From positions 1,550,001-1,614,000 of the forward strand of contig JAKZZE010000007.1 of the NCBI GenBank assembly GCA_024220505.1: a stretch of 64,000 nt of DNA, in the 5' to 3' direction. This document shows, one piece after another, positions 21,361 through 62,163 of this stretch (within the stretch, counting starts at the first letter, position 1; every line of letters begins with the position of its first letter). Origin of the DNA: Rhizopus arrhizus (Eukaryota > Mucoromycota > Mucoromycetes > Mucorales > Rhizopodaceae). The position numbers and the translations under genes are program-made. Below the pieces are notes generated by a model. That model had not been told where the DNA came from. It saw only the letters and a list, made by a program, of their open reading frames with translations, and did not search any database.

Positions 21361-23590
21361 TATCTGCCAAACAATTAGAAAGACTTTACAAGACCAAACA
21401 AATTGAAGAATGCTATTTTGCTCAAGTACATCTTAAAGAAAATGAAATGGTATATCTAAACAATATAAATGATATTGATGCTTCATGGTCTACAGAATTT
21501 AGCAAGGAGTTCCCTGAAGTATTTAAAGGCGAAATCACAGGATTGCCTCCAATGAGGGACACTCAAGATATAATTGTGACAAAGCCTGATACTGTACCGG
21601 TATCAAGACCACCATACAAAATGTCACCTCTAGAATTTTCTGAACTGCAAAAACAACTGAATGAACTGCTAAATAAAGGACTGATTGAGCCATGTGCTTC
21701 GGAGTGGTCAAATCCTGTGCTTTTTGTTAGAAAACCAAATGGTGATTTAAGAATGTGCTGTGACTATCGTATGCTGAACAAGGTTACTTTAAAACAAAAG
21801 ATACAACTACCAAGGATAGATGAATGTTTAGAGAGACTACACAATGCTAAGCATTTTACCTCTTTGGATTTGACTAATGGATTCCATCAACAGAGAATAA
21901 CCGAAGCTGACTCTATCAAAACTGCAATAAGTACTCGTTATGGTCAATTCTGTTGGAAAGTGGTACCTTTTGGTTTGTCTAATAGTGGTCCTGCGTTCCA
22001 AAAAATGATGAATTCGGTATTATCGGAATATATTGATAAGTTCGTAATGGTCTATCTTGATGATATTCTGATATTTACAAATGGAAATGAAGAACAACAT
22101 AAAGAGCATGTACGCTTAGTGTTGAAGAAACTAGACGAAGCTAAGCTTATTATAAACAAAAAGAAATGCAAATTTAATCGAAAAGAACTAACCTTCCTTG
22201 GATTTACTATCAATGAAAAAGGCATTCATCCTGACAACAAAAAAGTTGAAGCGATTCAGTCATGGCCAGTTCCAAAGAACGTCCAACAAGTTAGACAATT
22301 CATTGGATTAGCACAACACTATAGAAGATTTATTCCGGGCTTTGCAAGTATTGCTGCATCCTTGACAGATTTAACAAAAGGTACTGGTCACAAATGTCGT
22401 GCCATCACATGGAATGATGAATGTCAAAAGAGCTTCGATTTAATCAAGAAAATGATTTCAAGTGCTCCAGTCTTGATGACCCCTGATATGAACAAACCAT
22501 TTCGAATTGAATGTGATGCAAGTGATTTTGCGATTGGTGCTGTACTCATGCAAGAAGAATCTGAAGGAATATGGAAACCATTGGCTTTTGAATCGAAGAA
22601 ATTGTCGCAAGCGGAAAGAAACTACCCTGCACAAGAGAGAGAACTACTCAGTATATTGCATGCTCTGAGAACTTGGAGATGCTTTATCGAAGGTAATTCT
22701 TATCAAATATTCACTGATCACTTGCCCTTAAAGTACCTACGATCTCAAAACAAGCCGACTCCCAGATTGGTAAGATGGTTAAGTGAAATTGAGCTATATG
22801 ATCCTGAAATCTTGTACAAACCTGGTGCTGACAATCAAATTCCTGATCTACTATCGAGAAGAGATGGCCCTGACTCAATTCCTGACCCTAAATCTATACA
22901 ACCGAGATATGTCTATCATATAACTGCGGCGCTCAAGTCACTTCCCATATTAGAGCAAGATCCCATACAAGATTGGCCTCTGCATTACTTGAATGATCAA
23001 GATAAATGGCCTGAGAAGCTAAAGGATAGTTTAATCAAGTTGAAACACCATTTCGTGATTAAGGACAAGCAGGTTTATAGAATTGAAAAGATACAAAAGA
23101 CTGACAATCATATCGAACTTAAGTTTATACCCTTTTCAAGAAGAGCTGACTTAGTAAATGATTTTCATGCTGGATATGGTCACTCTGGTCGAACCACAAT
23201 ATATCATTTGATGAAGACACGTGTTTGGTGGCCTCGTATGCAAGAAGACATCAACGCTTGGATTTCTAAATGCCCAAAGTGTCAACTGGCTGCTTCTCCT
23301 GATAAAAACAATCACCATGCTCCTATGAAGCCTTTGGAAGTACCTCCAGCTTTTTCAAGATGGCATCTTGATTTTATAGGTGAACTGCCTATTACAAGGA
23401 ATGGAAACCGATGGCTTCTGATGGCTGTAGACTATACTACCAATTGGCCTATTGCTAGAGCACTGAAAAATGCAACAGGTGAAGAAATTGTAAAATTTAT
23501 ATATGAAGAAATAGTTATGCGTTTTGGGTGCCCACAAGAAATCATTACAGATAGAGGACCAAATTTCATGTCCAAGGTTGTGAAGCAATA
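21315..23590 (+). pseudogene. gypsy1 RT, RNase H and integrase (N-terminal part)
   Basis: RT blocks: MCCDYRMLNKVT, FTSLDLTNGFHQ, FGLSNSGPAFQ and the active site VYLDDILIF. RNase H: FRIECDASDFAIGAVL, ERELLSILHALRTW, QIFTDHLPLKYL. Integrase: zinc-binding HAGYGH...HLMKTRVWWP...CPKCQLA, then the core start RWHLDFIGELP and DRGPNF. The frame is open from 21315; the gypsy2 insertion at 23591 (target CAATA) cuts the integrase core. The downstream piece is at 29990-30688. Together they would give a complete integrase. RT copies the element's RNA in particles; integrase inserts the DNA in the nucleus. Confidence 0.9.
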
Positions 23591-24239
23591 TGTTAAGGAT
23601 ACATAAGATTATAGTCACTTTATTTTAGTAAAAGGAATCATATATGATCCTGAATAATATGTTGACATAACTTGGAATCATTTATAACATTATTCCCAAC
23701 ACAGATAAATAAAATACTTTGATTAGATTTTTATATTAAGCTTTATTCATATTAACTTCACATAGTCAAATAAGATGACATGGTTGTAATATAGTTTAGT
23801 GATAGTATGAGCATGTTGAATAAGGAATGACGATTACTTACCGGATCATCATTAGTCATGAAAACATTTATCCTGACTGAGATATTATTGTTAACAATGA
23901 TATCCAATCACGGAACTAAAAGTCTTTATATTCATCCGTACCGTCTCCTTAAATAGTTATATCTGAAACCATCCCAATAGCATAATTGACAATACAAGCT
24001 AGGAACAGGCTAAACTAATAATTAGAAATAGTAATCATCTATTCTGTCAAATTGATTATAAATCTGTCCTAATTCTTTATCCGTATCATGTCTATAAATA
24101 CTCTCACTTTTTACATGTAGAATTTATTTTTATCATATAATAGTTATCTTAACTTAATAAAGAGATACCAAGTTCTAACAGTATTTCTTTATCTTTGATT
24201 GCTATATTATATTTACCTAAAACTCCCCTTTCCTAAACA
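23591..24239 (+). repeat. gypsy2 5' LTR
   Basis: 649 bp. TATAAATA at about 24092 is a candidate TATA box and AATAAAG at about 24157 a polyadenylation signal. The LTR is followed directly by TTTTTTACTGTTAATTAC, not by a TGG-type primer site. Confidence 0.93.
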
Positions 24240-29183: not shown

Positions 29184-29340
29184 TAATAAAAAAAAGAAAA
29201 ACGGACAAAGATAGTCACGGTAAATTACCCCGCAATTTAGCATGAAAATGATCTACCAAATTGATTAGACATTTCATAACGCATACTTATTCACTTTTAT
29301 GCCGAATCAACAAGGTGTTGTTGAATCTGGTGGAGGATAA

Positions 29341-29989
29341 TGTTAAGGATACATAAGATTATAGTCACTTTATTTTAGTAAAAGGAATCATATATGATCC
29401 TGAATAATATGTTGACATAACTTGGAATCATTTATAACATTATTCCCAACACAGATAAATAAAATACTTTGATTAGATTTTTATATTAAGCTTTATTCAT
29501 ATTAACTTCACATAGTCAAATAAGATGACATGGTTGTAATATAGTTTAGTGATAGTATGAGCATGTTGAATAAGGAATGACGATTACTTACCGGATCATC
29601 ATTAGTCATGAAAACATTTATCCTGACTGAGATATTATTGTTAACAATGATATCCAATCACGGAACTAAAAGTCTTTATATTCATCCGTACCGTCTCCTT
29701 AAATAGTTATATCTGAAACCATCCCAATAGCATAATTGACAATACAAGCTAGGAACAGGCTAAACTAATAATTAGAAATAGTAATCATCTATTCTGTCAA
29801 ATTGATTATAAATCTGTCCTAATTCTTTATCCGTATCATGTCTATAAATACTCTCACTTTTTACATGTAGAATTTATTTTTATCATATAATAGTTATCTT
29901 AACTTAATAAAGAGATACCAAGTTCTAACAGTATTTCTTTATCTTTGATTGCTATATTATATTTACCTAAAACTCCCCTTTCCTAAACA
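29341..29989 (+). repeat. gypsy2 3' LTR
   Basis: Same length and, as far as I can read, same sequence as 23591-24239. Preceded by TGGTGGAGGATAA, a purine-rich candidate second-strand primer. Confidence 0.93.
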
Positions 29990-43255: not shown

Positions 43256-43587
43256 ATGATGATTGGATCGAGAAAGAGCTCAAAAGATGTGATACATGGA
43301 ATACAGCTAGAATTGTATTTACAAACAAATTCTTGACTGATAATGCTAGAACAGATGCTATGCATCGTCTATTCACAATGACCATGAATAAAAATGAATC
43401 TGTCTCCTCGTATATGACCCGATTTTTAAGCACTTGTATTGAGGCTGGGGCAAATAAAAATGATCCTATGGTAGCTGCTAGATTTAAAGCATCATTCTCT
43501 GAACCTGTTCTTGAGAAGTGTAAGACAGCTTTTGTTTTGAAAGAAAATAAAAACATACCATGGACTGTAGAGAGAGCTGCTGAAATA
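43256..43587 (+). pseudogene. gypsy3 gag fragment
   Basis: Starts in mid-protein with DDWIEKELKRCDTWNTA, equivalent to NAWVETELKRCRNWSEA in gypsy2, and runs to WTVERAAEI at the Tc1-E1 insertion (TA 43586-43587). The capsid N-terminus is absent. Confidence 0.88.
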
Positions 43588-45217
43588 CAGTAGCGGACAA
43601 AACTGGTGCACAAAACTTTTTTTTAGCTTTTAACTACCATTACCTGCTCATGGTAATTGCAATAGTCATGAAACTGTACTAGAAGGAGGATATACTAGTC
43701 ATTGTAATCTATGTATGTTCTAAGCATGACATTGTTAAAACTGAGCGATAAGCGTGCTTTGAATTTATAAAATCTTATATTTTCTAAAAACCGCAAAAGT
43801 GGCTAAAATCTTAGACTTTATATAATCATCTCATCTCTTGATATTATCGGATATTCTTCTTTGCATATGCTAATAATATGCGTGTATATCATTTTCAGTA
43901 AAAGAACCCGGCTCTTTAACTATTCTTTTCCAAAGATCATCGTCCCTTTTTCATCTAGTGTCGTATCATCATACCTTTGCCATCAATTGCCACCTGGCAT
44001 GCTTAAGCGGACTTAGGCCGGGATTAGTGGCGGCTAAACTTGTAGCACAGAAGCGCTGTTATCAAATATTGAGTTTGTGACATGCGTTGACTTGTGCCTT
44101 GTGTCATTGTCATACTGAAACGAGAGATTACGACGTTTTAGACTACTATACGCTAGGCTTTTGTGGTATGAAGTAAGCGAAATATATGTGTATATTTATG
44201 AGTTCATTATACCATCGTATACCTGACACACATATTCTGGTCCTCAATATCTAATACAGCCTTAAAACATAACAGAGCAGCCAGCATGCTTCATTGTTTG
44301 ATCACCGTGAAAAAATCGCTAAGGTTGCTCGACTTGCTTTCAATATTAGTGTATACTGTCTGCATCCATAATGTTCATATTTGTTTCATTGCTAAAGATA
44401 GCAGACTTCCAGCCCTCTATTGTATACAATGGCTTGTTGTGATACCACATTCATCGCTTTTTCCGACTTATACAGCTGATGAAATTCTTCGATTCCTTAC
44501 TTCCAGACTCAAAATCTAGCTTCCTACTGTGCCTTTAGACTGACAGTCTGCTAACACTGTATCTTAAGATCCTCAAAATGTGCTGAGCATCAGGAACTGT
44601 GTGTAACGGACCTTGTCCAAGCTTTAGGTTGATGACTGAACTAGTAACTTTTCAGACTAAAAGCGGGAGACCTTCATGATCACAAGACATTAAGTTTCTT
44701 TCTTCCCTCTTTCTCCTGTTGATTGTCCATTTAGAGATTCTTGTTATTCTAGAAATATCTGTTGTCGTACGAACTAAGTGTATTCGAGATCTCAGAGTTT
44801 CGTTTTTACAGTTGCTTATTTTCTTAAACATATAAGGCTAGTACTTTGTTATAGTGAATAGGGTAAAAACAAAAGGGGGGACTCAATGGGAAACACAAAA
44901 TAAGTACAGTTTTATATATTTTTTAAGAGCTACTAAAATTTACTAATATGCTGTGAAATCTGAAAGCAAACGGGAGAGATATGGGGAAAATTGAAAGAAG
45001 GCTAGACAAGCACTACATTTTTGGCGAAAATTGAAATATGCAAAAAATCACTAAAAATGACCTTATGCCTGAAGGATGTCCGGCACAGTTCCGGTTTACA
45101 TAACATAATGTATATTTTGGACTGTCTTTCAGATGGTATATGCCACAAAAGTCGCAGACATATGGCGGAGATACAATGTTGATTTTAATTTTTGTGCACC
45201 AGTTTTGTCCGCTACTG
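43588..45217 (-). mobile_element. Tc1-like element E1, 1630 bp, non-autonomous
   Basis: The TIR CAGTAGCGGACAAAACTGG starts at 43588; the inverted end is at 45217; TA on both sides (43586-43587, 45218-45219). The minus strand has scattered transposase remnants, for example a FQYDNDTRHK-like piece (around 44110) in place of FQxDNDPKH. No long frame survives. Confidence 0.92.
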
Positions 45218-46717
45218 TAGCTAGAAATCTGCTAGGAGATGATCCAAGGACATATGCAAGCTCATCCTATGCCAATGTTGCCAGTGGTAATAAAAGAATT
45301 CACACAAATGCTGGTCCTTTTAGTATTCAAAAAAGAAACAAAGGTCATGGTTCGTCTGGTGCTTTCTTTTGTTCAAGACATGGTGGTGCTAATGCAAATC
45401 ACAATGAAGATGATTGCTATAGTAAAACAAACAAGAAAAATGATGCTGCGTCGACCATAAATAACAAGTATTATGGCAATAAAAATTTTCCTCATAAGGC
45501 AAGCACAAGTAAACCCTGTCGCTATTGTGGTAGAAGTTGGTCCCATGGCCATCATTGTCAAGAATATGCAGACTATAAAAGAAAACTTCATGTCGATCCA
45601 AAAAATCCAAGAGATTCGGACAAGTCAATTTATGCCATTGTTCGTACTGCAAATGAAGAAAATGATAATGATCATGATATGACAGAAGCTGAAAATCACT
45701 CATATGACTGTAAGGCATTATGAAATAAAAAAACTGAAGATGAAGATACTAATCCATTTAAACTTTTGACTCCTATATTAATAGAGTGCAAGAAATTAAT
45801 TGGAAAGATTGACACTGGCAGTGATATCACTTGCATATCAAAAATTTGTTCGAATAATAAATTGAATATTGACAAAGTGAATTCTGTAAATGGTTCTTTA
45901 AATTTTTTGTCTTCAGATAATAATTGTAAACGAATTGGACAAACTGATCCTCTCACTTTAACATATATGAATAACATCTCTTTTAAACATTCCTTTGAAG
46001 TTGTAAATTTTAATGAGACAATGACACAAGAATTTGATGTCTTGCTTGGAACTGATGTTCTTGGAAAAATGAATATCGGTCTCACTGGAGTAGCATACAA
46101 GTACCCAGGTAATGAAGATGATTATTCAAATAGATTAAAAGAAGACGCACAATTCCTTAATATGAATTTTGACGCTAACAATGAGATTGAACCTAACAAC
46201 TCGCCTTATGGTACCGAAGATCAACAAAAGCAATTCATGGCTTATATCCAGAGTGCAATTGATGACAGCCAAAATATTCCTGCTGGATCTTTCTGCACAG
46301 TACCAGAATCTGTAGTAGAATTACCAATGGAAAAGGGAGCAAAGTCCTTTAAGAGACAATATCCAATTGCTCACCGACAAATGCCTGAATTAGAAGAGCA
46401 AATAAATGAATGGTTAAAAGCAGGTATCATGAAAGAGAACCGCGCTAACACATCATTTAATAGTCCTTTATTAATGGTACCAAAGAAAGATGAGAACAAT
46501 GAGATAACGAGCCACAGAGTATGTTTGGATGTTCGTGGTATCAACAAACTAATCCCTGATGTCGTATATCCTGTTCCAAAAATAAGAAGCATATTTGACA
46601 ACTTAGCTGGTGGTGAAGTATTCACTAAGATTGACTTGAAGAATGCATACAATAGTTTCCTTGTAGCCCCTAAAGATCAACACAAACTCTCCTTTCAATT
46701 TAAGAATCGAACATATA
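45218..46717 (+). pseudogene. gypsy3 gag C-terminus, protease and RT start
   Basis: Continues gag as ARNLLGDDPRTYASS. Cys/His clusters FFCSRHGG and CRYCGRSWSHGHHC (zinc knuckle) follow. An in-frame TGA at 45721-45723 separates this from the protease (KLIGKIDTGSDITCI, near 45800) and the RT start (VCLDVRGINKL, FTKIDLKNAYNSF). The same frame is open on both sides of the TGA. Cut at NRTY by Tc1-E2 (TA 46716-46717). Confidence 0.88.
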
Positions 46718-48347
46718 CAGTAGCGGACAAAACTGGTGCACAAAAATTAAAATCAACATTGTATCTCCGCCATATGTCTGCGACTTTTGTGGCATATACC
46801 ATCTGAAAGACAGTCCAAAATATACATTATGTTATGTAAACCGGAACTGTGCCGGACATCCTTCAGGCATAAGGTCATTTTTAGTGATTTTTTGCATATT
46901 TCAATTTTCGCCAAAAATGTAGTGCTTGTCTAGCCTTCTTTCAATTTTCCCCATATCTCTCCCGTTTGCTTTCAGATTTCACAGCATATTAGTAAATTTT
47001 AGTAGCTCTTAAAAAATATATAAAACTGTACTTATTTTGTGTTTCCCATTGAGTCCCCCCTTTTGTTTTTACCCTATTCACTATAACAAAGTACTAGCCT
47101 TATATGTTTAAGAAAATAAGCAACTGTAAAAACGAAACTCTGAGATCTCGAATACACTTAGTTCGTACGACAACAGATATTTCTAGAATAACAAGAATCT
47201 CTAAATGGACAATCAACAGGAGAAAGAGGGAAGAAAGAAACTTAATGTCTTGTGATCATGAAGGTCTCCCGCTTTTAGTCTGAAAAGTTACTAGTTCAGT
47301 CATCAACCTAAAGCTTGGACAAGGTCCGTTACACACAGTTCCTGATGCTCAGCACATTTTGAGGATCTTAAGATACAGTGTTAGCAGACTGTCAGTCTAA
47401 AGGCACAGTAGGAAGCTAGATTTTGAGTCTGGAAGTAAGGAATCGAAGAATTTCATCAGCTGTATAAGTCGGAAAAAGCGATGAATGTGGTATCACAACA
47501 AGCCATTGTATACAATAGAGGGCTGGAAGTCTGCTATCTTTAGCAATGAAACAAATATGAACATTATGGATGCAGACAGTATACACTAATATTGAAAGCA
47601 AGTCGAGCAACCTTAGCGATTTTTTCACGGTGATCAAACAATGAAGCATGCTGGCTGCTCTGTTATGTTTTAAGGCTGTATTAGATATTGAGGACCAGAA
47701 TATGTGTGTCAGGTATACGATGGTATAATGAACTCATAAATATACACATATATTTCGCTTACTTCATACCACAAAAGCCTAGCGTATAGTAGTCTAAAAC
47801 GTCGTAATCTCTCGTTTCAGTATGACAATGACACAAGGCACAAGTCAACGCATGTCACAAACTCAATATTTGATAACAGCGATTCTGTGCTACAAGTTTA
47901 GCCGCCACTAATCCCGGCCTAAGTCCGCTTAAGCATGCCAGGTGGCAATTGATGGCAAAGGTATGATGATACGACACTAGATCAAAAAGGGTCGATGATC
48001 TTTGGAAAAGAATAGTTAAAGAGCCGGGTTCTTTTACTGAAAATGATATACACGCATATTATTAGCATATGCAAAGAAGAACATCCGATGATATCAAGAG
48101 ATGAGATGATTATATAAAGTCTAAGATTTTAGCCACTTTTGCGGTTTTTAGAAAATATAAGATTTTATAAATTCAAAGCACGCTTATCGCTCAGTTTTAA
48201 CAATGTCATGCTTAGAACATACATAGATTACAATGACTAGTATATCCTCCTTCTAGTACAGTTTCATGACTATTGCAATTACCATGAGCAGGTAATGGTA
48301 GTTAAAAGCTAAAAAAAAGTTTTGTGCACCAGTTTTGTCCGCTACTG
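46718..48347 (+). mobile_element. Tc1-like element E2, 1630 bp, inverted relative to E1
   Basis: Same TIR as E1 at 46718 and 48347, TA at 46716-46717 and 48348-48349. Same length and almost the same sequence as E1 in opposite orientation. Only a few substitutions seen (for example near 47885 and 47985). No intact transposase. Confidence 0.92.
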
Positions 48348-49140
48348 TACCTTCCAAGGATGTTGTTTCGGTCTAAAAACAGTTACTGCAATATTCTGTA
48401 AAGTGATGAAAATACTCTTTGCAGATATGGATTTCATCGAGACCTATGTTGATGACTGTGTAATTAAAGGAACAGCTGAAAACCATGCTTCGAATGTAAG
48501 AAAGGTGATTGAACGATTAACTTCCGTCAACCTAAAAATCAATGTAAAGAAATGCAGTTGGTATCAACGATCAATCTATCTTTTAGGATTTGTAGTTGAA
48601 AGTGGTGGTATCATCAAAGTAGATCCACGCCGCTTAACAAACATTGATAGTTGGCCTATACCACGCAATAAAAAAGAAGTAATGCGATTAATGGGCATTG
48701 TATCATATATGAGAGACTTTATACCTTTAATCTCTCGTGTAGCTGCACCTATCGACAGACTTCGTAATGATCCTTATGTAGAGAACAACTGGACACAAGA
48801 ACATACTGATGCATTCATTGCTTTGAAAGAGATTCTAAAATCAAAGACACTGTTGCACACTCCAGACTTATCCAAAAAATTCTATGTGGCTACTGATGCC
48901 TCACAATATGGTGTTGGTGCAGTATTGACCCAAAGAGATGAGCTGAATAGAACTTTACATATTGCATTTGCATCTAAATCTTTGTCACCCTCTCAACGTA
49001 AGTGGAATACAACTAAACGTGAACTGTACGCGGTAGTGTTTGCACTAGAAAAATATCGTGAGTTTTTATGGGGGAAATAAATTTGAATTACGTACTGACC
49101 ATAAGGCTTTAATGTATTTACATACCCAAGAACAAGCAAA
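48348..49140 (+). pseudogene. gypsy3 RT and RNase H fragment
   Basis: RT resumes as FQGCCFGLKTVTAIF, active site ETYVDDCVI (near 48450), then RNase H FYVATDASQYGVGAVL and TTKRELYAVVFALEKY. A one-base frame error near 49072-49078 (GGGGGAAATAAATTTGAA) ends the frame early; the next register continues LRTDHKALMYLHTQ. The Merlin terminus then cuts the gene at 49141. Confidence 0.88.
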
Positions 49141-49632
49141 GGGTGATTGGGACTTCAGGCCACGATGGATAAATCATTAGATATACAGTTCAATCGGAGA
49201 TATATTTACAGTCCAAATATGGAAACAAGGGTTTTTGAGTATGGAGAATACGATGCCGCAGTTTAAATATTAAAATTCCGACATATTGCTGCTCTAATCG
49301 CAGAATTTGGCACTTTTTCCATGTTCCGTAAATGTAGTCCAATCCTGTTATCACGTAGCTTATCCATTAGGTACCAGACATTGTAATTAATGCACTCAAT
49401 CATAAAACTTTTGATTTTCTCTGCATCACTTCGGCTAGCTTTTTTAAAATACGTATACACGAAATTTTCTTTAAATTTGGCATAAAATAGTCATTGAAAG
49501 TAATGAAAGAGATACACAGAACAATATTAGTATTTAGTTACGGTTAAAAAGCATCTTGCAACCCATGAAGAGCATAAATTAATTTAACTGTAAGTGGGAC
49601 ACAATCATATTATTTTCTCGTTCTGACAGATA

Positions 49633-49704
49633 GTTAAAATAGCTTGGTTGGAAAAGTGTGGTCTTCCCAAAGTGATGATCCTGGGTTCGATACCCGGATG
49701 TGGA
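49633..49704 (+). other. tRNA-derived sequence in Merlin (Gly-CCC-like), with A and B boxes
   Basis: A box TAGCTTGGTTGG (49640-49651) and B box GGTTCGATACC (49684-49694) at tRNA-like spacing. D arm GCTT/AAGT and T arm CTGGG/CCCGG fold. The loop TTCCCAA would give anticodon CCC. The acceptor and anticodon stems do not pair, so it is a decayed or SINE-like derivative. Present in all three Merlin copies (inverted near 54587-54655 and 61257-61325). Confidence 0.6.
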
Positions 49705-49997
49705 TGATTGTTTTTATCGGAAATTTTGATCCTTCAACATTTTTGTTCACGGAATTTTAATTCGACGTAAGCCACAAAGGAAAAGAAGTTATCCCTTAAA
49801 ATTTTTTTCTTTTCTCTTTCGTTTTTTTTTGTTTTCTTTTTTTCCTTTTTTTTTTCCTTTTTTCTTTTTGTAACTGAAGGTAAGTTTAATATAGTATTTA
49901 ATGTAGTATTGTTTTCAATACTAATTTTTATCATCTTTGTAAAACATTGAATTGTTTAAATATTTTTATTCAAACTGAACGCAGAGTATTATACAAG

Positions 49998-51711
49998 ATG
50001 TCAACAAACAACAATAATTTAACTTCAAATGGACCAAGCTCAAGAGTCGTACCAAACGGTGAATTAGAAAGAGAAGCAATTACAGTTTCTTACGAATCTT
50101 GTTGGAAGTAAGTGTCTTTTTTTTTTTACAAAAATATGTTTACTAATTTTTTTTTAGTTTTTTAAGACGTATTGGAGCTATTTCTACTCAACCAGAGGTT
50201 AGATGTCCTAAGTGCAGCGAAATAATGCGTGGTCCAACATGGAGAGCATCCCGTAACCAATACCAATTTCGTTGTTATAATCGTGCTGTGCATCCTACAG
50301 AAGTATCTCAATCTGTTACAAAAAGTTCGATGTTTTACCGCAAGAGATGCGACATCCGTATCACATTGAAGGTTATATTTCGCCTTACGATGAACCAAGA
50401 AAGATTTTCAACGATATACAGAGACCTTTCCATTGACTACAAGATAATATCCCAGCTATACCGAGATCTTATTGTTGTATTTGAAAGCGATTTGTTAAGA
50501 CATAATCCAATTATGTTAGGTAAGTTATAAATATTTCTTTTATATCTTTATTAATTTATGTGATATAGGTGGGCCAGGTGTAGATCATGTCCAAATAGAC
50601 GAATCGAAATTTGGTAAAAGAAAGTACCATAGAGGCCATCGAGTAGAAGGTGTATGGGTTTTGGGCATGGTCGAAGCTATTGCCCTAGGTACAAATAGGG
50701 TTGTGACAGTATCACAAGCAAACGGCGTTACTGAAACAAGATTGGTACCTCAGTTCAAAGCAGGCCGCAGGTTTTTATGCACTGTTCCAAACAGAAATGC
50801 ACGCACCCTTATACCAATCATTCGAAAGTATGTTGTTCCAGGTACAACAATCCGAACGGATGGCTGGCGTGCCTATAGTGGCTTACACCCTAGGGAGCGG
50901 TACAATGCCCGCACTGGAGCGCTTCAAGTTGCAATGATGGATAGTGAGCAACATATTTACAGGCATCAAGTAGTTAATCATTCCCTTGGGTTTGCTACGG
51001 AAGATCAAGTTCACCAAAATAATACTCAAGGGATGATTAACACAAACATTATAGAAGGATTGTGGGCTGATGTCAAAAGAGAAATGCAAGCTAGGCATCG
51101 TACAAAGCTCGAGTGTCCTTATAGACTAATGGAATACTTGTGGCGTTACGAAAACCGTAACCAAATTTGGAGGGCTTTAGTGCGTGGTCTAGGGGAGGTA
51201 TCGTTTCCTGATATGCCAAGACAAAGAAACAGAGATGTAGAAGTTGAGAATTATCAACTCATAACAGAAGAAGAAGGAAGTGAAGAGGTGATGGAAGGTG
51301 ATCCAACTGATGAAATGAACAACAACCACGAAATTGACAGTAAATATAAAAAAAATGTGATAGTCTTATATTTGTCTAAATTAACATAATAATAATTTCT
51401 GCATAATAGTCGATATTGGTGAAGACACAGATACGGATGATATTGATAATGATCCAGATTATCAAGCAGAAGTACAGTCACCTCCATTACGTCGCCGTAG
51501 GCTTAATAGAAGAACTGATGTTGCAGTTGTGATAGAAGACGAGAGCAGTGCTTTACCTAATTCTGACAACAATAGTGTCCTTTCGGTCGAACAAGCTACA
51601 AGTAGATTACTGGAAGTTGTGCGAAACCGAGATATAGATAACTTTCAAGCAGCATCAGAAGCATTGTACAATGCTATGATCACAGAGCAAAGTACTTCAA
51701 ACGCAACATAA
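49998..51711 (+). CDS. Merlin transposase, four exons, 514 aa
   Basis: Exons 49998-50107, 50158-50519, 50569-51339, 51410-51711; introns start GT(AAGT, AAGT, AAAT) and end TTTAG, ATATAG, AATAG. The phases join to one frame from MSTNNNNLTSNG to the TAA at 51711. An N-terminal zinc-ribbon-like part has CPKC (53-56) and C76. The DDE domain of the ISXO2/IS1595 type shows D168 (VQIDESKFGKRKYHRGHRV), D255 (IRTDGWRAY) and E320 (NIIEGLWADVKR). The last exon is acidic, then basic (RRRRLNRR). Promoter and the tRNA-like sequence lie upstream. It cuts the element at its GG-starting ends and makes 9-bp target duplications, as seen at 54121 and 55141. Confidence 0.88.
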
Positions 51712-54120
51712 TAAACGTAAAAGATATTAGAAAACACGAACATTTTTTTATAAAGATATCTGTTACATACCTTTTCGATGTGTTAGAGTTACTTTACTGT
51801 AAATTGCTTAAACTTATATGAAGCGACTACCCTTTATTTTATGTAATCAGTGCATAAATATAAGTTAAATTTTATTTGCAAACCAAAAGCACTATTATGC
51901 TCTTGCTTATAATTTTTCTTTGCCTAAATATTACAGACTATTTTAGTTTCTTTTTTATACCTATTATCGAATATAAATACACATGCAATAAAAAACTAAA
52001 TAGCAATGAAAAATGTATCGGATCGAATAACAGAATTTAACTTTTTTTGAATACGAATTATAATGAGAATAACACATTTAATAAGAACATTTTAAAATTA
52101 AATTAAAAATAAGTTTGTAATTAACAAAATATGCTAAAAACGGTATGAATTAATATTTTTAAAGTATATTCACGAATAATATCGCATTGTTATATAATAA
52201 TATATGCTCTTATCATTTTAGAACAGAATCTGATTGCAGTTAATACTGACAAATACAAGTCTTAATATAAGATCATAATTAAAATAAAATAAAACATAAG
52301 TTTATTTAAATAAGGCCATATAATCAATTCCAATTAAACATGTTCTTTCAGAATATGCTTTGTATTAATGAGAGTTCTTTGATAAGAAGTATTAACTAAA
52401 GTAACAAAATCCAATCAAATGTCAGGTATTTCTCTAATATTTTACATAATTGGAATAACGTTATTTAAATCAGTGAAAAAATCCCAGAGTAAAAGATAAT
52501 ATATAACAGGCGTACAAACGAACAGACGAAAGCTTTTTACAACAATAATTATAAATGACATTTGCTAAAGTACTTGCCAGTTAAAGGAACGCTTACAATA
52601 GAGAATATTAAGCCACTGAGAAACATTCTAATTCATATTATTTTTTTTACAAAATTAAAAAAGAAAACAAATACTAAAAAGATATTGTTTAATATAATTC
52701 ATACCATTTTCATAAATACAGTAAATTGGTGAGAAACAACTAATGTAAAAATAATAATTATTTAAATATTAAGAGTAAATTAAAAATTATCATAAATCCT
52801 AAAATTAATAAATGTGTGTTGTATTAGTATCAATATTGAAAACCTTACAAAGTCATATAATTTGCATAATAATATGAACTTATATTGACATTAACTTTTA
52901 TCATTTCGTTTAGATTTTATCTTTTTATAATGGAAATATTCCTCACTCAATAAGATATGAATATCTGCCTTCAGTTAGTGTAATTTTTACTTTTAACTTA
53001 AGCTGAATAAAGATTAGATCCAAAAGTGTTCAAATTGTTTCCCAATCTTTGTTTCCACCTTTTCTTTTATTATTTTAACAATTATGCAATAATTACAGTT
53101 AGTTTTTTTTTTTTTTTTTCTTTTTTACAACTAATATTGGAGCCATAGCCAAAAAATAAAAACCTTTTAAAAATCGAAGAAATAATCTGATTCTCGCATG
53201 ATAAAAATGATGCATTTAGCTAAAAGTATTAGTATTTATTTCATATTTTTCAAAAGATACTTGAGAACAAGCTTTTATGTGGCATGCATACCCGAACAAT
53301 GGATGATGCCTCTTTATAAGAAGCCCTAGTTATAGCATGTAAGCTACGAATCCTAATTAGGTCGGAAAACTTTTGGCAGTCATAATGATGTTCTCTATAA
53401 CAGCCATTAATTAGTGCAATTAGAGTCCAAAGAACGTACAAAGTGGTTTGGGAGCATTAATCCTTCACAAAAGTAAACAAGGCCAAGCTGAGGAAACCAG
53501 ATGCTTACAGTGCCGGAGTGCCCAAAACTCAATTTTTTAGATTCTGTTAAAAATTTTACCACACGCAAAGCATAACAAGATAAGTAGTTTCCCAAAGTCT
53601 CGGAGTGTGAAATCAAATATTCGCTCCGCAATGTTAACAAAAGTGCGAATATGCTACAAATTTAGGAGCCCTATAAACCTACCATATCTTGAAAGTTTTT
53701 TATAAACTATTGCAGACCAAACGATACGGTTATCAAAAATAGATGTACAAACTTTCCGCTATAAACTCCGACATTTATATTTTTTTGCGTTAGTTTTTGA
53801 CCTATTTCTCTACCACAAATGGTAATAAATAAAACAAAAATTTATGCCTATTTTTGGAACATATTGTTACACAATTGTTCAAAATTTCATTAAAATCCAT
53901 AAAGATCTCATGGATATCAAGAGCGCCAAAATTTTATTCATACCGCCTATTTTCAAATGCAAATACTGATAACAAAAAGTCGGAATTTGAATACAAAAAT
54001 AGTTTCAATGGATGCACAATGACCTAAAGTATATGTTTTTGTTCTTAGATTGCGATTCTAGCTCCGATTTAACTCCAGATCCAAGGATTTATCCATCGTG
54101 GCCTGAACTCCTAGTTGTCC
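51712..54120. other. Merlin 3' non-coding region
   Basis: About 2.4 kb AT-rich. Minus-strand frames at 53250-53640 encode two overlapping short segments (YREHHYDCQKF; SYALRVVKFL-like) that could be an eroded second ORF, but no family is recognised. No RNA gene seen. Confidence 0.4.
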
Positions 54121-54171
54121 AACTAAAAAAAATTAGTAAACATATTTTTGTAAAAAAAAAAAGACACTTAC

Positions 54172-54281
54172 TTCCAACAAGATTCGTAAGAAACTGTAAT
54201 TGCTTCTCTTTCTAATTCACCGTTTGGTACGACTCTTGAGCTTGGTCCATTTGAAGTTAAATTATTGTTGTTTGTTGACAT
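54172..54281 (-). pseudogene. Merlin copy 2 transposase exon 1, inverted
   Basis: Same 110-bp exon as 49998-50107 but on the minus strand, separated from exons 2-4 by the inversion. The copy cannot make the full transposase. Confidence 0.9.
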
Positions 54282-55147
54282 CTTGTATAATACTCTGCGT
54301 TCAGTTTGAATAAAAATATTTAAACAATTCAATGTTTTACAAAGATGATAAAAATTAGTATTGAAAACAATACTACATTAAATACTATATTAAACTTACC
54401 TTCAGTTACAAAAAGAAAAAAGGAAAAAAAAAAAGGAAAAAAAGAAAACAAAAAAAAAACGAAAGAGAAAAGAAAAAAATTTTAAGGGATAACTTCTTTT
54501 CCTTTGTGGCTTACGTCGAATTAAAATTCCGTGAACAAAAATGTTGAAGGATCAAAATTTCCGATAAAAACAATCATCCACATCCGGGTATCGAACCCAG
54601 GATCATCACTTTGGGAAGACCACACTTTTCCAACCAAGCTATTTTAACTATCTGTCAGAACGAGAAAATAATATGATTGTGTCCCACTTACAGTTAAATT
54701 AATTTATGCTCTTCATGGGTTGCAAGATGCTTTTTAACCGTAACTAAATACTAATATTGTTCTGTGTATCTCTTTCATTACTTTCAATGACTATTTTATG
54801 CCAAATTTAAAGAAAATTTCGTGTATACGTATTTTAAAAAAGCTAGCCGAAGTGATGCAGAGAAAATCAAAAGTTTTATGATTGAGTGCATTAATTACAA
54901 TGTCTGGTACCTAATGGATAAGCTACGTGATAACAGGATTGGACTACATTTACGGAACATGGAAAAAGTGCCAAATTCTGCGATTAGAGCAGCAATATGT
55001 CGGAATTTTAATATTTAAACTGCGGCATCGTATTCTCCATACTCAAAAACCCTTGTTTCCATATTTGGACTGTAAATATATCTCCGATTGAACTGTATAT
55101 CTAATGATTTATCCATCGTGGCCTGAAGTCCCAATCACCCTTTTTAG

Positions 55148-56701
55148 TTTTTTAAGACGTATTGGAGCTATTTCTACTCAACCAGAGGTTAGATGTCCTA
55201 AGTGCAGCGAAATAATGCGTGGTCCAACATGGAGAGCATCCCGTAACCAATACCAATTTCGTTGTTATAATCGTGCTGTGCATCCTACAGAAGTATCTCA
55301 ATCTGTTACAAAAAGTTCGATGTTTTACCGCAAGAGATGCGACATCCGTATCACATTGAAGGTTATATTTCGCCTTACGATGAACCAAGAAAGATTTTCA
55401 ACGATATACAGAGACCTTTCCATTGACTACAAGATAATATCCCAGCTATACCGAGATCTTATTGTTGTATTTGAAAGCGATTTGTTAAGACATAATCCAA
55501 TTATGTTAGGTAAGTTATAAATATTTCTTTTATATCTTTATTAATTTATGTGATATAGGTGGGCCAGGTGTAGATCATGTCCAAATAGACGAATCGAAAT
55601 TTGGTAAAAGAAAGTACCATAGAGGCCATCGAGTAGAAGGTGTATGGGTTTTGGGCATGGTCGAAGCTATTGCCCTAGGTACAAATAGGGTTGTGACAGT
55701 ATCACAAGCAAACGGCGTTACTGAAACAAGATTGGTACCTCAGTTCAAAGCAGGCCGCAGGTTTTTATGCACTGTTCCAAACAGAAATGCACGCACCCTT
55801 ATACCAATCATTCGAAAGTATGTTGTTCCAGGTACAACAATCCGAACGGATGGCTGGCGTGCCTATAGTGGCTTACACCCTAGGGAGCGGTACAATGCCC
55901 GCACTGGAGCGCTTCAAGTTGCAATGATGGATAGTGAGCAACATATTTACAGGCATCAAGTAGTTAATCATTCCCTTGGGTTTGCTACGGAAGATCAAGT
56001 TCACCAAAATAATACTCAAGGGATGATTAACACAAACATTATAGAAGGATTGTGGGCTGATGTCAAAAGAGAAATGCAAGCTAGGCATCGTACAAAGCTC
56101 GAGTGTCCTTATAGACTAATGGAATACTTGTGGCGTTACGAAAACCGTAACCAAATTTGGAGGGCTTTAGTGCGTGGTCTAGGGGAGGTATCGTTTCCTG
56201 ATATGCCAAGACAAAGAAACAGAGATGTAGAAGTTGAGAATTATCAACTCATAACAGAAGAAGAAGGAAGTGAAGAGGTGATGGAAGGTGATCCAACTGA
56301 TGAAATGAACAACAACCACGAAATTGACAGTAAATATAAAAAAAATGTGATAGTCTTATATTTGTCTAAATTAACATAATAATAATTTCTGCATAATAGT
56401 CGATATTGGTGAAGACACAGATACGGATGATATTGATAATGATCCAGATTATCAAGCAGAAGTACAGTCACCTCCATTACGTCGCCGTAGGCTTAATAGA
56501 AGAACTGATGTTGCAGTTGTGATAGAAGACGAGAGCAGTGCTTTACCTAATTCTGACAACAATAGTGTCCTTTCGGTCGAACAAGCTACAAGTAGATTAC
56601 TGGAAGTTGTGCGAAACCGAGATATAGATAACTTTCAAGCAGCATCAGAAGCATTGTACAATGCTATGATCACAGAGCAAAGTACTTCAAACGCAACATA
56701 A
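55148..56701 (+). pseudogene. Merlin copy 2 transposase exons 2-4
   Basis: Exons 55148-55509, 55559-56329, 56400-56701 match copy 1 and keep the three catalytic residues and splice sites. The first exon and promoter point the other way (54172-54281). Without a new start, expression is unlikely. Confidence 0.88.
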
Positions 56702-59110
56702 TAAACGTAAAAGATATTAGAAAACACGAACATTTTTTTATAAAGATATCTGTTACATACCTTTTCGATGTGTTAGAGTTACTTTACTGTAAATTGCTTA
56801 AACTTATATGAAGCGACTACCCTTTATTTTATGTAATCAGTGCATAAATATAAGTTAAATTTTATTTGCAAACCAAAAGCACTATTATGCTCTTGCTTAT
56901 AATTTTTCTTTGCCTAAATATTACAGACTATTTTAGTTTCTTTTTTATACCTATTATCGAATATAAATACACATGCAATAAAAAACTAAATAGCAATGAA
57001 AAATGTATCGGATCGAATAACAGAATTTAACTTTTTTTGAATACGAATTATAATGAGAATAACACATTTAATAAGAACATTTTAAAATTAAATTAAAAAT
57101 AAGTTTGTAATTAACAAAATATGCTAAAAACGGTATGAATTAATATTTTTAAAGTATATTCACGAATAATATCGCATTGTTATATAATAATATATATGCT
57201 CTTATCATTTTAGAACAGAATCTGATTGCAGTTAATACTGACAAATACAAGTCTTAATATAAGATCATAATTAAAATAAAATAAAACATAAGTTTATTTA
57301 AATAAGGCCATATAATCAATTCCAATTAAACATGTTCTTTCAGAATATGCTTTGTATTAATGAGAGTTCTTTGATAAGAAGTATTAACTAAAGTAACAAA
57401 ATCCAATCAAATGTCAGGTATTTCTCTAATATTTTACATAATTGGAATAACGTTATTTAAATCAGTGAAAAAATCCCAGAGTAAAAGATAATATATAACA
57501 GGCGTACAAACGAACAGACGAAAGCTTTTTACAACAATAATTATAAATGACATTTGCTAAAGTACTTGCCAGTTAAAGGAACGCTTACAATAGAGAATAT
57601 TAAGCCACTGAGAAACATTCTAATTCATATTATTTTTTTTACAAAATTAAAAAGAAAACAAATACTAAAAAGATATTGTTTAATATAATTCATACCATTT
57701 TCATAAATACAGTAAATTGGTGAGAAACAACTAATGTAAAAATAATAATTATTTAAATATTAAGAGTAAATTAAAAATTATCATAAATCCTAAAATTAAT
57801 AAATGTGTGTTGTATTAGTATCAATATTGAAAACCTTACAAAGTCATATAATTTGCATAATAATATGAACTTATATTGACATTAACTTTTATCATTTCGT
57901 TTAGATTTTATCTTTTTATAATGGAAATATTCCTCACTCAATAAGATATGAATATCTGCCTTCAGTTAGTGTAATTTTTACTTTTAACTTAAGCTGAATA
58001 AAGATTAGATCCAAAGTGTTCAAATTGTTTCCCAATCTTTGTTTCCACCTTTTCTTTTATTATTTTAACAATTATGCAATAATTACAGTTAGTTTTTTTT
58101 TTTTTTTTTTCTTTTTACAACTAATATTGGAGCCATAGCCAAAAATAAAAACCTTTTAAAAATCGAAGAAATAATCTGATTCTCGCATGATAAAAATGAT
58201 GCATTTAGCTAAAAGTATTAGTATTTATTTCATATTTTTCAAAAGATACTTGAGAACAAGCTTTTATGTGGCATGCATACCCGAACAATGGATGATGCCT
58301 CTTTATAAGAAGCCCTAGTTATAGCATGTAAGCTACGAATCCTAATTAGGTCGGAAAACTTTTGGCAGTCATAATGATGTTCTCTATAACAGCCATTAAT
58401 TAGTGCAATTAGAGTCCAAAGAACGTACAAAGTGGTTTGGGAGCATTAATCCTTCACAAAAGTAAACAAGGCCAAGCTGAGGAAACCAGATGCTTACAGT
58501 GCCGGAGTGCCCAAAACTCAATTTTTTAGATTCTGTTAAAAATTTTACCACACGCAAAGCATAACAAGATAAGTAGTTTCCCAAAGTCTCGGAGTGTGAA
58601 ATCAAATATTCGCTCCGCAATGTTAACAAAAGTGCGAATATGCTACAAATTTAGGAGCCCTATAAACCTACCATATCTTGAAAGTTTTTTATAAACTATT
58701 GCAGACCAAACGATACGGTTATCAAAAATAGATGTACAAACTTTCCGCTATAAACTCCGACATTTATATTTTTTTGCGTTAGTTTTTGACCTATTTCTCT
58801 ACCACAAATGGTAATAAATAAAACAAAAATTTATGCCTATTTTTGGAACATATTGTTACACAATTGTTCAAAATTTCATTAAAATCCATAAAGATCTCAT
58901 GGATATCAAGAGCGCCAAAATTTTATTCATACCGCCTATTTTCAAATGCAAATACTGATAACAAAAAGTCGGAATTTGAATACAAAAATAGTTTCAATGG
59001 ATGCACAATGACCTAAAGTATATGTTTTTGTTCTTAGATTGCGATTCTAGCTCCGATTTAACTCCAGATCCAAGGATTTATCCATCGTGGCCTGAACTCC
59101 TAGTTGTCCA

Positions 59111-61830
59111 TATTTATGCACTGATTACATAAAATAAAGGGTAGTCGCTTCATATAAGTTTAAGCAATTTACAGTAAAGTAACTCTAACACATCGAAAAG
59201 GTATGTAACAGATATCTTTATAAAAAAATGTTCGTGTTTTCTAATATCTTTTACGTTTATTATGTTGCGTTTGAAGTACTTTGCTCTGTGATCATAGCAT
59301 TGTACAATGCTTCTGATGCTGCTTGAAAGTTATCTATATCTCGGTTTCGCACAACTTCCAGTAATCTACTTGTAGCTTGTTCGACCGAAAGGACACTATT
59401 GTTGTCAGAATTAGGTAAAGCACTGCTCTCGTCTTCTATCACAACTGCAACATCAGTTCTTCTATTAAGCCTACGGCGACGTAATGGAGGTGACTGTACT
59501 TCTGCTTGATAATCTGGATCATTATCAATATCATCCGTATCTGTGTCTTCACCAATATCGACTATTATGCAGAAATTATTATTATGTTAATTTAGACAAA
59601 TATAAGACTATCACATTTTTTTTATATTTACTGTCAATTTCGTGGTTGTTGTTCATTTCATCAGTTGGATCACCTTCCATCACCTCTTCACTTCCTTCTT
59701 CTTCTGTTATGAGTTGATAATTCTCAACTTCTACATCTCTGTTTCTTTGTCTTGGCATATCAGGAAACGATACCTCCCCTAGACCACGCACTAAAGCCCT
59801 CCAAATTTGGTTACGGTTTTCGTAACGCCACAAGTATTCCATTAGTCTATAAGGACACTCGAGCTTTGTACGATGCCTAGCTTGCATTTCTCTTTTGACA
59901 TCAGCCCACAATCCTTCTATAATGTTTGTGTTAATCATCCCTTGAGTATTATTTTGGTGAACTTGATCTTCCGTAGCAAACCCAAGGGAATGATTAACTA
60001 CTTGATGCCTGTAAATATGTTGCTCACTATCCATCATTGCAACTTGAAGCGCTCCAGTGCGGGCATTGTACCGCTCCCTAGGGTGTAAGCCACTATAGGC
60101 ACGCCAGCCATCCGTTCGGATTGTTGTACCTGGAACAACATACTTTCGAATGATTGGTATAAGGGTGCGTGCATTTCTGTTTGGAACAGTGCATAAAAAC
60201 CTGCGGCCTGCTTTGAACTGAGGTACCAATCTTGTTTCAGTAACGCCGTTTGCTTGTGATACTGTCACAACCCTATTTGTACCTAGGGCAATAGCTTCGA
60301 CCATGCCCAAAACCCATACACCTTCTACTCGATGGCCTCTATGGTACTTTCTTTTACCAAATTTCGATTCGTCTATTTGGACATGATCTACACCTGGCCC
60401 ACCTATATCACATAAATTAATAAAGATATAAAAGAAATATTTATAACTTACCTAACATAATTGGATTATGTCTTAACAAATCGCTTTCAAATACAACAAT
60501 AAGATCTCGGTATAGCTGGGATATTATCTTGTAGTCAATGGAAAGGTCTCTGTATATCGTTGAAAATCTTTCTTGGTTCATCGTAAGGCGAAATATAACC
60601 TTCAATGTGATACGGATGTCGCATCTCTTGCGGTAAAACATCGAACTTTTTGTAACAGATTGAGATACTTCTGTAGGATGCACAGCACGATTATAACAAC
60701 GAAATTGGTATTGGTTACGGGATGCTCTCCATGTTGGACCACGCATTATTTCGCTGCACTTAGGACATCTAACCTCTGGTTGAGTAGAAATAGCTCCAAT
60801 ACGTCTTAAAAAACTAAAAAAAAATTAGTAAACATATTTTTGTAAAAAAAAAAAGACACTTACTTCCAACAAGATTCGTAAGAAACTGTAATTGCTTCTC
60901 TTTCTAATTCACCGTTTGGTACGACTCTTGAGCTTGGTCCATTTGAAGTTAAATTATTGTTGTTTGTTGACATCTTGTATAATACTCTGCGTTCAGTTTG
61001 AATAAAAATATTTAAACAATTCAATGTTTTACAAAGATGATAAAAATTAGTATTGAAAACAATACTACATTAAATACTATATTAAACTTACCTTCAGTTA
61101 CAAAAAGAAAAAAGGAAAAAAAAAGGAAAAAAAGAAAACAAAAAAAAAACGAAAGAGAAAAGAAAAAAATTTTAAGGGATAACTTCTTTTCCTTTGTGGC
61201 TTACGTCGAATTAAAATTCCGTGAACAAAAATGTTGAAGGATCAAAATTTCCGATAAAAACAATCATCCACATCCGGGTATCGAACCCAGGATCATCACT
61301 TTGGGAAGACCACACTTTTCCAACCAAGCTATTTTAACTATCTGTCAGAACGAGAAAATAATATGATTGTGTCCCACTTACAGTTAAATTAATTTATGCT
61401 CTTCATGGGTTGCAAGATGCTTTTTAACCGTAACTAAATACTAATATTGTTCTGTGTATCTCTTTCATTACTTTCAATGACTATTTTATGCCAAATTTAA
61501 AGAAAATTTCGTGTATACGTATTTTAAAAAAGCTAGCCGAAGTGATGCAGAGAAAATCAAAAGTTTTATGATTGAGTGCATTAATTACAATGTCTGGTAC
61601 CTAATGGATAAGCTACGTGATAACAGGATTGGACTACATTTACGGAACATGGAAAAAGTGCCAAATTCTGCGATTAGAGCAGCAATATGTCGGAATTTTA
61701 ATATTTAAACTGCGGCATCGTATTCTCCATACTCAAAAACCCTTGTTTCCATATTTGGACTGTAAATATATCTCCGATTGAACTGTATATCTAATGATTT
61801 ATCCATCGTGGCCTGAAGTCCCAATCACCC
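59111..61830 (-). mobile_element. Merlin copy 3, inverted and truncated (2720 bp)
   Basis: Reverse complement of copy 1 from its left terminus (at 61830) to the position equivalent to 51860. The right 2.3 kb is missing; the truncated end joins the right terminus of copy 2 at 59110/59111. The right flank is CACTA-C. Confidence 0.9.
59260..60973 (-). CDS. Merlin copy 3 transposase, four exons
   Basis: All four exons are present on the minus strand: 60864-60973, 60452-60813 (approx), 59632-60402 (approx) and 59260-59561, with the same splice sites and catalytic motifs as copy 1 (VQIDES, IRTDGW, NIIEGLW). Stop TAA at 59260. The coding region looks intact although the element's right end is lost, so this copy could supply transposase but not move by its own two ends. 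Exon borders in the middle are inferred by alignment to copy 1. Confidence 0.85.
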
Positions 61831-62163
61831 ATTATTTCTATTGTTCAACTTCAGATGCATATATTAGAACATCGACAAGCTTTAGCTTAATCATTGGTTC
61901 TTCAGCACGACATCGTGACCGAGTCTATATCTTTTATATCTACGCTCACAAAGAATGTAAATAGATGCCAACTTTTTATCCATAAAGCGAGGCCTTTTCG
62001 CAATATAAAGAAATCTGCAATAAAGAAGGATTTTAATTTTATATTGCTGCTATTGTTTTTTTGTTTAATTTTTTATTTAATCTTGCGATTAAAACAATGT
62101 TCAAGCTAACAATTATTTTTTTTTTAAAAAAAAAAAGCCAAGATTGAAAGTTGTTTCAGTAAC

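Follow-up and report, generated by a model that had tools for sequence, protein, structure and literature searches.

Rearranged Merlin array within a Ty3/gypsy element of Rhizopus arrhizus: a candidate case of alternative transposition

The window analyzed here, a stretch of 64,000 nucleotides of Rhizopus arrhizus DNA (C39:1550001-1614000), comes from an assembly of 50.3 Mb in 41 contigs. It contains a 12.7-kb array built from a 4,980-bp Merlin-type element, in which a full copy is followed by an inverted 1,020-bp left part of a second copy, the remainder of that same copy and an inverted 2,721-bp left part of a third (Table 1). Every join of the array, internal (three) or outer (two), coincides exactly with an element tip, and the repeat spacing in the array is 4,990 bp. 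By BLAST, 54121-55143 matched 49138-50159 in inverted orientation at 99.7%, with three gaps and no mismatches, while 55141-59110 matched 50151-54121 directly at 99.8%, with four gaps and two mismatches. An earlier note on this DNA had described the inversion with joins at 54120/54121 and 55140/55141. The inversion was recovered and both joins were exact to the base, with the right tip at 54120 and the left tip at 55140, but the further inverted left part that extends the array to 61830 had been missed. The join at 55140 also creates an open frame of 138 amino acids (window 55104-55520), which begins within the terminal repeat and continues into the second transposase block. When this frame was searched against a protein database, the part encoded by the terminal repeat was present in none of the five matches.

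Table 1. Coordinates in the window of the Merlin array, its internal target sites and the gypsy element around it (e, position in the 4,980-bp element)
Feature	Position	Strand	Remarks
Ty3/gypsy pol (RT, RNase H)	45766..49140	+	interrupted by a 1.6-kb element at 46716-48349; copy 1 starts after ACAAGCAAA
Copy 1, full element, e1-e4980	49141..54120	+	left tip 49141, right tip 54120
Copy 1 transposase, IS1595-type DDE domain	50034..51338	+	three blocks: 50034-50108, 50153-50521, 50565-51338
TTTTTAGTT in copy 1, e1011-1019	50151..50159	+	equivalent of the target site
Copy 2, inverted left part, e1019-e1	54121..55140	-	left tip 55140
9-bp target, inverted copy	54121..54129	-	adjoins right tip of copy 1
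9-bp target, direct copy	55141..55149	+	adjoins left tip of copy 2
Copy 2, remainder, e1011-e4980	55141..59109	+	right tip 59109
e2713-2721 beside right tip of copy 2	59110..59118	-	putative site at which copy 2 inserted into copy 3
Copy 3, inverted left part, e2721-e1	59110..61830	-	left tip 61830
Distal end of the same gypsy family, interpreted as LTR part	61831..62096	+	downstream of the left site by 2,119 bp in an array-free copy

The transposase of copy 1 scored 46.7 bits against PF12762 (cut-off 27 bits) and 39.8 bits (E 4.3e-10) against NF033547, the latter below a curated cut-off of 75 that was set for prokaryotic proteins. The terminal inverted repeats are imperfect, being identical at 31 of the first 38 positions and 47 of the first 60, and both tips begin with GG. 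The available portion of PMC8101967 gives Merlin elements target duplications of 8 or 9 bp and terminal inverted repeats of 24-462 bp with a GG start; it records Merlin in Rhizopus, and the word “inversion” does not occur in it. The DDE transposase, the 8/9-bp target duplications and the GG terminal repeats place our element in the Merlin superfamily (IS1595/IS1016-related). Seventeen database matches were obtained with the transposase, and the ten with a named organism came from R. arrhizus (six), R. delemar (two) and Thamnidium elegans (two).

We searched the genome with patterns for the element tips, allowing up to three mismatches, and obtained 23 left and 21 right tips, each of the 44 without a mismatch. 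The flanks of all 44 tips were compared in 483 left-right pairs, and 18 pairs had a common flank of 8 or 9 bp. Twelve of these pairs were both ends of one copy, with 8 bp in nine copies and 9 bp in three; the proposal in the earlier note that nine bp fits the target size of the family thus holds for three of the twelve, nine being one of two sizes. Three pairs brought together ends from different copies within a single locus; two of them are at C27 and one is in the array (AACTAAAAA, 9 bp). The remaining three joined ends across loci (C3/C14, C39:952953/C14:1035748 and C5/C39:956271). As a control for chance, 58,443 off-register comparisons of left flanks with right flanks gave one 8-bp match and no 9-bp match. 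The 9-bp match in the array, which joins the left tip at 55140 and the right tip at 54120 as ends of different copies with the common flank in inverted position, is more than chance.

The word at these breakpoints, TTTTTAGTT, occurs on the plus strand of the window at 50151 and 55141 and as its reverse complement at 54121, 60812, 7887 and 27704, giving two direct and two inverted occurrences within the array. The earlier note had it direct at 55141-55149 and inverted at 54121-54129, exactly where we found it, and had also listed the occurrence in copy 1 at 50151; the one at 60812, which is the same site in copy 3, was unmentioned there. Comparison with a database transposase suggests that the site in copy 1 lies at the acceptor end of the first transposase intron. 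A run of 8 A adjoins the target word in the inverted copy, where copy 1 has 9 T on the other strand.

Seven left and three right tips among the 44 had no partner. The array holds left tips 49141 and 61830 and right tip 59109 of these, and the other five left and two right tips lie at C8, C14, C20, C25, C31 (twice) and C37, two of them belonging to copies that run off contig ends. As partnerless tips are also present elsewhere, they do not set the array apart. Merlin sequence flanking a tip, when 600 bp of flank per tip was compared with copy 1, was found at three of the 44 tips, all within the array.

We analyzed the flanks of the array for its site of insertion. The search with 61831-62096 gave at least 40 scored matches; seven pairs of these had like orientation, a spacing of about 5.6 kb and a pol match in between, and the matches outside the seven pairs, among those listed, were single. 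On the strength of these pairs around pol, we read 61831-62096 as part of an LTR. In an array-free gypsy copy at C40, 2,119 bp separate the two outer sites, whose order and orientation are unchanged. Both outer flanks therefore match one gypsy family in order and orientation, which places the array within one gypsy copy with 2,119 bp replaced. An unrelated locus was considered for the right flank, as the 266 bp initially matched only itself among the best 40 of 330 matches, and was rejected when a search with the 266 bp alone returned the gypsy family. The copy of the 1,634-bp element that interrupts the gypsy RT (46716-48349) has an inverted counterpart at window 43586-45219; the two are 99.7% alike and have 33-bp terminal inverted repeats. 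Elsewhere in the window, identical 650-bp direct repeats at 23590-24239 and 29340-29989, 5.75 kb apart, are possibly the LTRs of a young retrotransposon.

We attempted to locate the missing partners of the outer sites and of the internal e2713-2721 site. Genome-wide, no partner end was found for ATATTTAT, CAAGCAAA or GAAATAAT: neither right tips with the other halves of the two outer sites nor a left tip with the other half of the e2713-2721 site turned up in pattern searches that tolerated 0-2 extra bases and no mismatch, or when the flanks of all 44 tips were compared. The loss of 2,119 bp of gypsy sequence and the absence of these partners fit an excised segment, and a deletion by recombination predicts the same.

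To characterize the origin of the array segments, we compared them at e1880 with 13 other loci, six of which gave no match at the position. The base was T in all three array segments that cover the position and C in all seven other readable loci. The common base indicates that the three covering segments arose from one copy, and it counters the independent insertion of elements from other loci. The array segments otherwise vary at a T-rich tract (e690-706), in how long their short one- or two-base runs are and in where a C falls within a T run at e3980. For a test of chimerism, the array offers the one common base and run-length differences, which are too few sites.

We modeled the history of the array with blocks for the left, middle and right parts of the host and for the element, divided at its two internal targets, and sought the shortest histories; the breakpoints permitted were those observed. 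Ordinary insertions alone, up to four insertions and 14 blocks, did not reach the array. Ordinary insertions together with homologous exchange reached it from an empty site in six events, four insertions and two exchanges. When a left and a right end from different copies, or from sister chromatids, were permitted to pair as hybrid ends, three steps after the first insertion (four events) were sufficient, with 18 labelled paths. Two of these paths have a single hybrid step, which takes place within one chromatid in the first and between sisters in the second. The two models are about equally selective: of 143,360 arrangements of the same blocks, three steps with hybrid ends reached 49, and six events of insertion and exchange reached 64. 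The path with a single hybrid step also needs three close insertions, so that clustering alone does not separate the models, and the preference for hybrid ends over recombination rests mainly on the event count. A plain head-to-tail tandem was rejected as the precursor, as it leaves the inverted third copy and the lost gypsy segment unexplained. The precursor in the earlier note, neighboring copies of an array, probably needs to be changed as well: the shortest history with a single hybrid step starts from copy 1, about 2.1 kb of gypsy and an inverted copy 3 with the neighbor nested in it.

We propose, with a probability of about 0.55, that the array is the product of alternative (hybrid-end) Merlin transposition, most simply with reversed ends on one chromatid. 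In the putative precursor, copy 1 would lie in gypsy, with an inverted copy 3 in the same gypsy 2.1 kb downstream, and copy 2 would be nested in copy 3 at e2713-2721 in the same direction as copy 1. The transposase would pair the right end of copy 1 with the left end of copy 2 and cut both from the approximately 4.4 kb between them (by arithmetic), and the intervening piece would be lost, presumably as a circle. The joined pair would then insert at e1011-1019 of copy 2 and duplicate 9 bp, which would leave the first 1,019 bp of that copy inverted. With this single reversed-ends step, the gypsy segment would disappear, as would the right half of copy 3 and each partner of the three orphan ends. 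We infer the order of these events, the lost circle and whether the ends belonged to the same chromatid or to sister chromatids. The reversed-ends reading had been offered in the earlier note; the left and right ends of different copies at one 9-bp site, the gypsy loss and the three orphan ends speak for it, but a nested inverted insertion followed by recombination between the 1-kb arms gives the same block order.

We evaluated the flanks of Merlin copies elsewhere for signs of exchange. The copy at C14 has the right flank of the C3 copy (99.0% over 1.5 kb) and the same left flank as the copies at C31 (100%) and C37 (99.6%). These regions (C14:1051384-1060302, C3:1628501-1633480, C31:353630 to the contig end and C37:1-8178), in which the copies at C31 and C37 extend past the ends of their contigs, suggest segmental duplication or ectopic exchange. 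The flanks of the copy at C39:952953-956271 are discordant, the right flank being that of C5:1569654 (98.9%, 1.5 kb) and the left 8 bp being the right flank of C14:1035748. From such flanks, homologous exchange between Merlin copies in this genome appears likely. At C27:518414-526569, two inverted near-identical Merlin copies 585 bp apart have exchanged target duplications of 8 and 9 bp. The pair can be read as an inversion by recombination or as a hybrid-end insertion, and in the block model the arrangement was made in one sister-chromatid step. The C27 copies differ by one base and are too alike, also to two others, for a chimerism test of the Galileo type.

A history of nested insertions and homologous recombination would involve an inverted insertion at e1011-1019 of another copy, an exchange across the 1-kb inverted arms that flips the segment between them, and a separate exchange between direct copies, by which the 2.1-kb gypsy segment was deleted together with the right half of copy 3. 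Its product has the identical block order, and it predicts equally the left and right ends of different copies that share one target duplication in the array. Exchange between copies is suggested at C14/C3 and at C39:952953/C5, and the inverted pair at C27 is a classic exchange product, albeit one that is also expected from hybrid-end insertion. We regard this history as the main rival, but as less likely than hybrid-end transposition, as it takes six events compared to four, and four insertions within about 7 kb of a 50-Mb genome compared to three (single-hybrid) or one (all-hybrid); the confinement of Merlin-in-Merlin flanks to the array also argues against it.

An error of the assembly, or chimeric long reads, in an array of near-identical repeats is a poorer explanation, and we regard it as improbable. 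The 12.7 kb consists of repeats that are 99.7-100% alike, the differences between segments are length changes in one- or two-base runs, and the segment between the inverted arms could have its orientation mis-set; however, the joins are all at exact tips and one pair has an exact 9-bp target, which is unexpected of random chimeras. We also considered that the ends of an excised copy inserted into its own e1011-1019, generating an inversion circle of about 4,989 bp that recombined into a resident copy. The 4,990-bp spacing, within one base of that element plus a 9-bp duplication, agrees with such a circle, and self-insertion of Sleeping Beauty yields inversion circles according to the available part of PMC3952818. 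The circle is very improbable: one more recombination step would be required, and neither the lost gypsy sequence nor the three orphan ends would be explained without further events.

The proposed hybrid-end transposition of Merlin has parallels in known systems, as described in the available portions of the papers cited here. With Ac, the right end of one element pairs with the left end of a nearby element that has the same orientation, the segment between the ends is excised, and matching target duplications are present at both breakpoints (PMC3744419, PMC8225341). The array differs from the Ac cases in being of Merlin/IS1595 type, fungal and deduced from a genome, with a target inside a partner element. 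In hybrid element insertion of Drosophila P elements, the ends of two copies, which may lie on sister chromatids, insert close by and can yield inverted identical copies with exchanged target duplications (PMC3744419, PMC2775673); P elements belong to another superfamily, and a version with sister chromatids is possible for the array but not required. Galileo of Drosophila buzzatii, with inversions by ectopic recombination, resembles C27 in that its inverted copies have exchanged their target duplications, but the Galileo copies are chimeric at many variable sites (PMC2775673), whereas such sites are too few here. In the self-insertion circles of Sleeping Beauty, the ends attack the interior of their own element with a target duplication (PMC3952818). 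Those are the two ends of one excised copy, whereas the ends in the array come from different copies. Impala of Fusarium is a Tc1/mariner element with a target size other than that of Merlin. Like the history proposed for the array, it represents fungal rearrangement via non-standard transposition (named in PMC8225341).

Alternative transposition is named for Ac/Ds, P elements, impala and Sleeping Beauty in the portion of PMC8225341 at hand, complex Ac alleles are described in that of PMC9910405, and a fungal review, in its available part, has Merlin only within a list of superfamilies (PMC6679389). No case of alternative transposition, rearrangement, reversed ends or hybrid elements was found for Merlin in the open-licence literature searched, in agreement with the earlier note, which knew of no description for Merlin. 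The array is probably the work of a known mechanism in a superfamily for which we found no report. We put forward more tentatively, at rather less than even odds, that reversed-ends or sister-chromatid hybrid transposition by the Merlin transposase has recurred in this fungus with strongly local targets that include the element itself, the array and the C27 pair being independent outcomes and the first Merlin/IS1595 case found in our search.

Where clustered ends are found without partner target duplications, the array suggests a rule for reading them, namely to seek one excised segment that bears all the partners. Alternative transposition rearranges chromosomes directly, without homologous recombination, and the Merlin case, if true, would suggest that this is a general property of DDE cut-and-paste elements, including the kin of bacterial IS1595.
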